64,000 nucleotides of DNA, from positions 1 to 64,000 of the forward strand of contig JAJQFO010000096.1 of NCBI GenBank assembly GCA_021201095.1. Direction: 5' to 3'. The translations under genes were made by a program, and so were the position numbers. Origin of the DNA: Lachnospiraceae bacterium (lineage in GTDB: Bacteria; Bacillota; Clostridia; Lachnospirales; Lachnospiraceae). The notes beneath the pieces were generated by a model. It was not told the origin of the DNA. It saw nothing but the letters and a program-made list of their open reading frames with translations, and ran no database searches. This document shows positions 13,472 through 38,106 of this stretch, one piece after another. Numbering within the stretch: the stretch's first letter is position 1; each line of letters opens with the position of its first letter.

Positions 13472-14212
13472 TCAGTCAGGCCGCCGCTCGTCCGAAGCCT
13501 GACGCAGCAGCTCCAGAGACCGCCTCATTCCTTCCGCCAGATCTTCTCTCATTCCATGCTCCAGCCACTCCAGAAGCACACCTTCCAGAGCGCATTTCTG
13601 CAGATTTCGGATCAGGCGCTGATCTTCCTCAGATAATTTTTGCATCTCGGGCATCTGGTCCACAGGCAGCACATAATTAGAAACCATATAGTCGCACAGC
13701 TGCTCCAGCTGATGCTGCAGAACTGCCCGGTCCAGAGAGCGGTAAATATGGAGGATTGCCCGTTTATTTTCCTGAAGCATGTCCACAATCTGTGTCAGGC
13801 CTTTCACCATATTTTCTGCTGTCTCCGGCAGGGCAGAATGCTCTTCCGGAACGCTTTGGGCGTCGCAGGAGCGACCTGCCCTCGCCGGGTTATGCCTCCC
13901 ATCTCCGATTGTGGGGCGAGGAGGCGTTTCCATAGCTCCTGCGAAACGCGCAGCGTTTTTAGCATCGCAGGAGCGACCTGCCTCCGAAGCGCAGCGAGGT
14001 GGCACTTCCATAGCTTCCTTCATGATCCGGTCCATTTCCCGTTTAAACGCATATTCCATGACATCCGTGATATCCCGGAAGTGATAATAAAAGGTGTTTC
14101 GGTTAATCCCGCACCGTTCCACGATATCCTTCACCGTAATTTTGGTAAACGGCCGCTCATTCAGCAGTTCAAAAACGGTCCGAATAATCAGCTCTTTTGT
14201 CATCATTGCCAT
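13472..14212 (-). CDS. TetR/AcrR-family regulator with repeat-derived internal insert
   Basis: N-terminal TKELIIRTVFELLNERPFTKITVKDIVERCGINRNTFYYHFRDI HTH; internal low-complexity segment corresponds to dispersed repeats. Confidence 0.85.
   Translation of the reverse strand: MAMMTKELIIRTVFELLNERPFTKITVKDIVERCGINRNTFYYHFRDITDVMEYAFKREMDRIMKEAMEVPPRCASEAGRSCDAKNAARFAGAMETPPRPTIGDGRHNPARAGRSCDAQSVPEEHSALPETAENMVKGLTQIVDMLQENKRAILHIYRSLDRAVLQHQLEQLCDYMVSNYVLPVDQMPEMQKLSEEDQRLIRNLQKCALEGVLLEWLEHGMREDLAEGMRRSLELLRQASDERRPD
13858..14016. repeat. Repeat-derived segment inside the TetR gene (two GCAGGAGCGACCTGCC units)
   Basis: tcgcaggagcgacctgcc occurs twice (about 13863 and 13974), each followed by GC-rich sequence and ttccatagct. 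Confidence 0.7.
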
Positions 14213-22086: not shown

Positions 22087-22271
22087 GAAAACCCCAGAGT
22101 GCCGTTTCCCACCATCTGACTCCTGGCAATGCCAGGTGGGTGACCGCAGCGCCGATATCTGCCTTCCACTGCAAACGGAGGCCTGACATCAACCGGGCAA
22201 TATAGGAATCCCATTTAAAGTAAATGCAGGTTCAACACAGCAGGAGTGTCGAACACCCCAGGAATTTTTCA
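22087..22271 (-). ncRNA. ssrS: 6S RNA candidate
   Basis: About 185 nt; terminal stem pairs AAttCCUGGGGUGUU with GGCACUCUGGGGuuUU, with a long bulged rod between; upstream promoter TTGCGA-17 nt-TATACT. Confidence 0.78.
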
Positions 22272-34155: not shown

Positions 34156-35287
34156 TTACTCCGCCTGCTCCAGCGACTTCCCGCCCAGAGACATCCATTT
34201 CAGATAGGCATTGATGAACGGATCCAGCGCCCCGTCCATGACTGCGTCTACATTGCCGGATTCCTCGCCGGTGCGCAGATCCTTCACCAGCTTGTAGGGC
34301 TGCATGACATAGGAGCGGATCTGGTTGCCCCAGCCGATCTCCTTGACCTCGCCGCGGATATCGGACTCTTTCTGCGCATTCTCCTGCTCGCGCAGAAGGA
34401 GCAGCTTGGTCTTTAACATCTGCATCGCCTTGTCCTTGTTCTGGAACTGGGAGCGTTCATTCTGGCAGGTCACGACAATGCCGGTCGGCAAATGCGTAAT
34501 GCGGATGGCGGAGGACGTCTTGTTGATGTGCTGGCCGCCCGCGCCGCTGGACCGATAGGTATCAATGCGCAGGTCGTCCGGATTGATTTCCACATCCACG
34601 TCCCGCTCCAGCACCGGCATGACATCGCAGCTCACAAAGGAGGTCTGCCTCTTGCCGGCGGCGTTAAACGGGGAGATACGCACCAGCCGGTGCACGCCTT
34701 TTTCGGATTTCAGATAACCGTAGGCACGGGATCCGTTGACCTGGAAGGTCACTGATTTGATACCGGCCTCCTCACCGTCCAGCAGATCCAGGACTTCCAC
34801 CTGATAGCCTTTTTTATCCGCCCAGCGCGTGTACATGCGGTAGAGCATGGATGCCCAGTCGCAGGACTCCGTGCCGCCTGCTCCGGCATGGAGCGAAACG
34901 ATCGCGCTCTCCTCGTCATACTCTCCTGAGAGTAGCGTCTTGATCCGGATATCATCTAAGGTCTGCTGAAATTCATCCAGCATCTCCTGGATCTCAGGAA
35001 TGACCGCCGGATCGTTTTCCTCATATCCCATCTCAATCAGAAGCTCAATCTCCTCATACTGGCTCTGCAGCTGCTGATAAGTGGAAACATCTTCTTTGAG
35101 GCTGGCAAGCGTCTTCATGGATTCCTGCGAGGCTTCCGGATTGTCCCAGAAATCCGGCTCCTCCATCCGGCGCTCCAGCTCCTGTATCCGCTGTTCTTTG
35201 ACAGCGAGGTTAAAGTGAATCCCTCACTTCCACTAATGGTTTGGTGTAGCTGTTTAAAATTGTTTTGAACTGGTCAAGTTCTACCAT
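34156..35287 (-). CDS. prfB: Peptide chain release factor 2 with programmed +1 frameshift (zero frame 35287-35210, then +1 frame 35211-34156)
   Basis: ATG GTA GAA ... AGG GAT TCA CTT TAA C; zero frame MVELDQFKTILNSYTKPLVEVRDSL*, then +1 frame NLAVKEQRIQELERRMEEPDFWDN; HAGAGGTESCDWASM and RSSGAGGQHINKTSSAIRITHLPTG (GGQ) motifs. Confidence 0.93.
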
Positions 35288-35532
35288 TGTGTCACCTTCT
35301 TTCTATATATTATCGCGCGTCTCCCCGGCATCCCCCAGTTCGGACACGCTCTATGCTCTATCGGACAGATGACATTTTCGTCAGCTGTCCGCTGTGCCTG
35401 GCGGATGCGGCGCAAGCCGCAAAATTCCTTATCCGCCTATGTGTCTCCAAAACAGCAAAGCGGTACTACTAAGCTCAATCTGCGCCTGGCGGCTTGATTT
35501 TGCTAAACACCGACATTGCTTTAACGGTCCTC

Positions 35533-38106
35533 TCACGCCTTCCGGCCGCAGCACTGCTTGTACTTCTTGCCGCTGCCGCAGGGGCACGGGTCATTGGGGT
35601 AAATCTTTTCGGCCACACGCTTTTTGGGGGCGCGGACAGCGGTGTCGTCTTTGTTGGTGCCGGTTACTTTGGCCACTTCCTCGCGCTCGACCTTCTGCTC
35701 AACCTTGATGTGGTAGAGCAGGCGAACGGTATCCTGCTGAATGCCGGCGGTCATTTCGTCGAACATCTCATAAGCGCTCATCTTGTACTCCACCTTCGGG
35801 TCGCGCTGTCCATAGGCCTGCAGGCCGATGCCCTGGCGGAGCTGATCCATGTCGTCGATGTGATCCATCCATTTGCGGTCAATGACCCTGAGCAGGATGA
35901 CGCGCTCCATCTCGCGGAATTTCTCGTCGTCACCAACTTCCGCTTCTTTGGCCTCATAAAGCTTCACTGCCGCTTCGTTCAGGGAGGCCTTCAGTTTTTC
36001 CTTATCAGAAATGGACGCCACCGTTTCTTCTGTCACCGGCGGAAGGGGGATGGTCGGCAGCAGGAGTGAGTTGAGTTCATTCAGATCCCAGCTTTCCCGG
36101 TCGTTGTCGGTACAGCTTCTGTCTACAGCGCGGCTGACAATCTCGGAGGCCATCTTCAGGATATAGTCGCGCATGCTCTCGCCGTCGAGTACACGGCGGC
36201 GCTCCGCATACATAATCTCGCGCTGCTCATTGTTGACCTGATCGTATTCGAGCAGGTTTTTACGGATGCCAAAGTTGTTGCTCTCGATCTTCATCTGCGC
36301 CTTCTCAATCGCGCTGGAGAGCATCTTATGTTCGATCTGCTCGCCTTCCTTTACACCGAGAGACTTAAAGACATTCATCATTTTCTCAGAGCCGAACAGG
36401 CGCATCAGATCATCTTCCAGAGAAATATAGAATCTGGACTCGCCTGGGTCACCCTGACGGCCGGAACGGCCGCGCAGCTGATTGTCAATACGCCGGGACT
36501 CATGACGCTCGGTGCCAATGATCTTTAAGCCGCCGGCAGCGCGGGCCTCATCGTCCAGCTTGATATCCGTACCACGGCCGGCCATGTTGGTCGCGATGGT
36601 GACGGTGCCGTGGATACCGGCCTCGGCGACAATCTCTGCCTCCATCTCATGGAACTTCGCATTCAGCACCTGGTGCTTGATACCGGCGCGCTTGAGCATA
36701 TTGCTCAAAAGCTCGGATACCTCGATCGTGATCGTGCCGACCAGCACCGGCTGCCCTTTGGCGTTGGCTTCCTTGACCGCCTCAACCACCGCACGGTATT
36801 TTTCCTTCTGGGTCATATAAACCGCGTCGTCATAATCAATACGCTGCACCGGGACGTTGGTCGGAATCTCGATCACATCCATGCCATAGATGTCCCGGAA
36901 CTCCTCCTCCTCTGTCAGCGCGGTACCGGTCATGCCGGCTTTTTTCTCATATTTATTAAAGAAATTCTGGAAGGTGATCGTGGCGAGCGTCTTGCTCTCG
37001 CGCTTTACCTTCACATGCTCCTTTGCCTCGATTGCCTGATGCAGGCCGTCCGAATAGCGGCGCCCCGGCATAATACGGCCGGTGAACTCATCGACAATCA
37101 GGACCTCATCGTCCTTTACCACATAATCCTGGTCGCGGAACATCAGATAGTTTGCCCGCAGCGCCAGATCGACATTGTGCTGGATCTCCAGGTTCTCCGC
37201 GTCTGAGAAGTTGTCAATGTGGAAAAACTTCTCCACCTTCTCGATGCCCTGCTGGGTGAGCGTAACCAGCTTGTCCTTTTCATTGACGATAAAATCACCG
37301 GTCTCGGTGATCTCCTCACCCATAATCGCGGTCATCTTCGTGACCTCGCCGCTTGCCTCGCCCTTTTCCAGCTGTCTGGCCAGAATATCGCAGACCTCGT
37401 AGAGTTTGGTGGACTTGCCGCTCTGTCCGGAAATAATCAGCGGGGTACGCGCCTCATCGATCAATACCGAGTCGACCTCATCGATGATCGCATAGACCAG
37501 GCCGCGCTGTACCAGCTGCTCCTTGTAGATCACCATGTTGTCACGCAGGTAATCAAATCCGTCCTCATTATTCGTAATGTAGGTGATATCGCATTTGTAC
37601 TGCTCCCGGCGCTCGTCGTTGTTCATCGAATTGAGCACACAGCCGACCGTCAGTCCCAGAAAGCGGTGCACCGCGCCCATCCACTCAGCGTCACGGCTCG
37701 CCAGATAATCATTGACCGTGATGATATGGACGCCCTGTCCGGTCAGTGCATTTAAGTACGCCGGGCAGGTCGATACCAGCGTCTTACCTTCACCGGTACG
37801 CATCTCAGCGATACGGCCCTGATGAAGAATGATGCCGCCCATCAGCTGCACCCGGTAATGCTCCATGCCCAGCACACGCCGCGCCGCCTCACGTACGGTC
37901 GCGAACGCTTCCGGCAGCAGATCATCCAGTGTCTCGCCTTTCGCATAGCGGTCCTTGTATTCCTGCGTCTTTCCCGCAAGCTGCTCATCCGAAAGCGCCA
38001 TCATGTCCGGCCGCAGCGACTCTATCTTGTCCACCAGCGGCATGATGCGCTTCAGCTCATGCTCACTGTGTGTCCCAAACATCTTTTTTACAAAATTAAA
38101 TGCCAT
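35533..38106 (-). CDS. secA: Preprotein translocase ATPase SecA
   Basis: [33 protein letters not shown]-terminal [17 protein letters not shown] zinc motif. Confidence 0.97.

Follow-up and report, generated by a model that had tools for sequence, protein, structure and literature searches.

The prfB gene within the 64,000-nucleotide stretch of Lachnospiraceae DNA analysed here (the window) probably carries a working +1 programmed frameshift cassette whose UGA has been replaced by UAA, so that the shift would respond to total RF1 + RF2 and RF2-specific feedback would be relaxed, with a stop that drifts within the family and has gone on to TAG in one genus. The site itself is a member of an already known minority class; the new part is the family-wide drift of the stop and the UAG clade.

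Anatomy of the prfB site

The product of prfB is RF2, as indicated by its profile match and its motifs, and the gene follows secA, as in B. subtilis (Table 1). An open zero frame whose last codons are AGG GAT TCA CTT is interrupted by TAA C, the stop standing at codon 26 as it does in E. coli, and the remainder of RF2 is encoded in the +1 frame, beginning with AAC at 35211 (NLAVKEQ...). This arrangement of 25 codons, TAA and 351 aa of RF2 in +1 bears out the programmed site proposed in the initial annotation, and the SD-like box AGGGATTCA and CTT TAA C, with AGGG 5 nt from CTT and C at +4, stand in the E. coli register, as had also been proposed. The window gene thus resembles the E. coli / B. 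subtilis type in its SD-like box, CUU_U, +4 C and RF2 body in +1, but its box has the family form rather than AGGGGGTAT, and UAA replaces UGA, so that RF1 can compete. The reading of the stop as UAA rather than the RF2-specific UGA proved correct, and two near relatives, L135 and L137, carry the same TAA. UGA is typical of the prfB frameshift class and not required for membership, because 1.4% of genomes with the motif are known to have UAA (PMC12421855). When the leaders of five close relatives were compared, the codon differences were mostly synonymous in the zero frame and mostly nonsynonymous in the other frames.

Table 1. Features of the prfB locus and two RNA matches elsewhere in the window
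Feature	Position	Strand	Description
secA, upstream neighbour of prfB	35533..38106	-	ORF; SecA-like sequence and a C-terminal 14-residue stretch
secA-prfB spacer	35300..35530		about 245 bp
prfB Shine-Dalgarno GAAGGTG	35293..35299	-	read directly; similar AGAAGGTGA-like box 5' of relatives' prfB
prfB start ATG	35285..35287	-	read directly
Zero-frame leader, ATG to CTT	35213..35287	-	open frame of 25 codons, MVELDQFKTILNSYTKPLVEVRDSL
Internal SD-like AGGG	35221..35224	-	putative shift stimulator; GGG in 104/104 family sites
Slippery CUU_U	35212..35215	-	CTT at 35215-35213; CTTT in 104/104 family sites
In-frame stop UAA	35210..35212	-	codon 26, read directly; UGA in most bacteria
+4 C after the stop	35209..35209	-	C in 103/104 family sites
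+1-frame RF2 body	34156..35211	-	351 aa + stop, the stop ending at 34156; TIGR00020 prfB 523 bits (cut-off 370); SPF and GGQ motifs
GA-cis RNA	13931..14013	+	Rfam match, 42.8 bits
6S RNA	22087..22267	-	Rfam match, 58 bits

The spacer between secA and prfB exceeds the length found in several relatives and includes part of a dispersed repeat, which has 11 other partial matches genome-wide at 71-90% identity.

Frequency and lability of the UAA site

In the survey of Prince et al. (2025), which covered 8,164 motif-bearing genomes, the stop was TGA in 98.6%, TAA in 1.4% and TAG in none, and the TAA sites were judged to be scattered at random and poorly tolerated (PMC12421855). The window shares CTTTAAC and an intact cassette with these TAA-type sites, and UAA at this position is therefore not the novelty that it was initially taken to be. 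In Lachnospiraceae, however, TAA accounts for 17% of motif-bearing prfB, is retained at the level of genera and has a daughter UAG clade. We read the prfB site in the 130 Lachnospiraceae genomes with the best RF2 matches, from a draw of about one per genus, and found TGA in 86, TAA in 18 and a motif that was absent or not recognised in 26, which gives TAA in 18 of 104 motif-bearing genes (17.3%). The 80 nearest GTDB r220 records, a set that partly overlaps this draw in organisms, displayed TGA in 61, TAA in 10, TAG in one and no motif in eight. Outside the family, prfB itself was read in 89 further genomes of the phylum, with one genome for most of the families sampled; TGA was present in 78, TAA in a single genome and no motif in 10, and the resulting rate (1/79) agrees with the published world rate. 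The family differs from the rest of the phylum (18/104 versus 1/79, Fisher p = 3.3e-4) and from the published survey (18/104 versus 114/8164, p = 3e-14, the 114 being derived from the reported 1.4%; PMC12421855), these p-values being guides only, since the compared sets include related genomes. TAA at the prfB site is rare worldwide and common in Lachnospiraceae; the initial annotation had staked its reading on UAA being uncommon in a survey, an expectation that holds globally and fails within this family.

A 15-mer pattern scan of 397 family genomes detected the TAA or TAG form in 49 (the TAA form in about 47). Because the reversed 15-mer gave no match in the same 397 genomes and only one of the 31 matches with checked loci (L260) was not prfB, the site is not a chance match. 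The phylum-wide pattern AGGGGRTMTCTTTARC matched none of 399, an uninformative result given that its TGA counterpart matched just 4 of 101 genomes. Loss of UGA driven by GC content was rejected, the TAA loci being slightly richer in G+C (0.518 versus 0.482).

From GGG to the +4 C, variants made up at most 2% of the 104 family sites at every position but one, the second stop base, where A was present in 17%; the scan required GGG and pyrimidine-TT, so the invariance at those bases is partly built in. The base preceding GGG was A in 89 sites and G in 15. An RF2 tree of 144 sequences, some of them selected because they carry TAA, implies at least 26 switches between stop states. Because the stop alternates among the relatives of the window (TGA in the nearest, L134, and in G152, the other species sampled in its genus, and TAA in L135, L137 and the window), and because both sampled species of five genera carry TAA, the TAA state is inherited yet labile. 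Such variation agrees with selection that acts on the shift and only weakly on the identity of the factor reading the stop. Three family members without the frameshift (L049, L051 and L122) have Asn at the former stop position (SLNL, SLNP), which fits loss from an ancestor that had TAA and not TGA.

A UAG clade in the genus of Candidatus Fimimorpha

One of the 80 nearest relatives, Candidatus Fimimorpha excrementavium (L198), displayed the site CTT TAG C. Among eight species of its genus, TAG was present in six (L198, L216-L221) and TAA in two (L222, L223), and G292, the sole genome with TAG in the family draw, has the same site as one species of this genus. In a tree of SecA and RF2 proteins, the six species with TAG group together in one clade (94/94) that is sister to the TAA pair, with the genus supported at 100/99. 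Because the TAG species form a single clade, the simplest path is TGA to TAA to TAG, with one transition each. In a DNA tree of prfB alone, the two TAA species fell within the TAG group; this tree was set aside, since its letter composition is uneven and the SecA and RF2 protein tree separates TAA from TAG species. No other report of a TAG-type prfB frameshift site was found by text search of a limited paper collection, nor is one present in Prince et al., who used the absence of UAG from 8,164 genomes to argue that autoregulation is the universal purpose of the frameshift (PMC12421855).

Both prfA and prfB are present in this genus, and the SPF motif of RF2 and the PxT motif of RF1, which determine specificity, are unchanged. 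An RF2 broadened to read UAG was rejected because the recognition domain showed no change confined to the TAG species. Reassignment of UAG found no support either, as UAG ends 42 of 251 long ORFs (17%) in a 348 kb sample, much like in the genome of the window; no tRNA with a CUA anticodon was detected in an incomplete set of 30 tRNA loci. Before TAG, the codon differences were almost exclusively synonymous when read in the zero frame, which did not hold for the other frames, and both frames therefore appear to be translated across TAG. As RF2 is not expected to read UAG, its self-regulation in this genus has probably been lost or rewired.

Release factors predicted to be sensed by the shift

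The textbook rationale of the RF2 frameshift is that its stop codon is read by RF2 alone, whereas UAA is read by both RF1 and RF2, and UAG is specific to RF1. Full-length RF2 (25 + 351 aa) would arise only if the peptidyl-tRNA on CUU slipped to UUU before a release factor acted. Because either factor can read UAA, a UAA cassette would sense RF1 and RF2 together and not RF2 alone, so that RF2-specific feedback would be relaxed, and the competitor at the UAG cassette of the Candidatus Fimimorpha genus would be RF1 alone. In Lachnospiraceae, selection for shift efficiency would hold the cassette in place but leave the stop free to drift between TGA and TAA. The predicted sensing at UAA and UAG extends depletion results from B. 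subtilis, in which ribosomes queued at UGA and not at UAA when RF2 was depleted and at UAG when RF1/PrmC was depleted, and in which changing one stop codon rewired the release factor that was sensed (PMC8073009). The same results support the loss of RF2 specificity that had been considered likely for this site.

RF2 autoregulation could instead be fully retained if RF2 performed most of the termination at UAA, which would then act much like UGA. Prince et al. argue that RF2 is still dominant at UAA in most bacteria, which may preserve some feedback (PMC12421855), and the otherwise intact cassette is consistent with such retention. We nevertheless consider it unlikely, given that RF2 depletion in B. 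subtilis produced no queue at UAA (PMC8073009) and that the change to UAG in one genus would preserve feedback by RF2 only if the RF2 of that genus could read UAG. UAA is a minority even in Lachnospiraceae, and UGA may thus still be favoured.

Translation of RF2 from an internal start, with the frameshift as a relic, deserves mention because the ORF supplied with the sequence begins, as had been pointed out, at an internal ATG (35166) that has GGAG 6 nt upstream, leaving out 25 + 15 = 40 codons. The cassette core and the zero-frame protein sequence are strongly conserved, however, the Met of this ATG is Leu in some relatives (for example, L025 and L063), and the frameshift losses in the family are in-frame and remove the CTTT-stop, which together make this reading very improbable. 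That TGA was misread as TAA by base calling or assembly is hardly credible: although a single base in an assembly of 362 contigs is concerned and the close relatives L134 and G152 have TGA, roughly 47 of the 397 family genomes have the TAA form, as do both sampled species of five genera and two near relatives, L135 and L137. A caveat to the UAA reading is that the genome of the window scores 5.35% for contamination and contains a second secA-prfB pair, with the UGA-type site AGGGGATCTCTTTGAC, on a 2.7 kb contig (C270); the RF2 encoded there is 54% identical to that of the window, and the pair is probably foreign, a contaminant. Many of the relatives compared are metagenome assemblies.

With regard to the genus of Candidatus Fimimorpha, we lean slightly towards a scheme in which RF2 synthesis needs frameshifting at UAG, so that RF2 is unable to regulate itself and its output is set by RF1 through cross-regulation, with UAA sites such as that of the window as the bridge. 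A freely drifting stop beside frozen shift machinery, together with a UAG genus, uncouples retention of the frameshift from RF2 feedback, which had hitherto been seen together, and the natural UGA, UAA and UAG versions of a near-identical cassette make the question directly testable. If the proposed cross-regulation is true, Lachnospiraceae would retain the cassette not for RF2-specific feedback but for some other reason.
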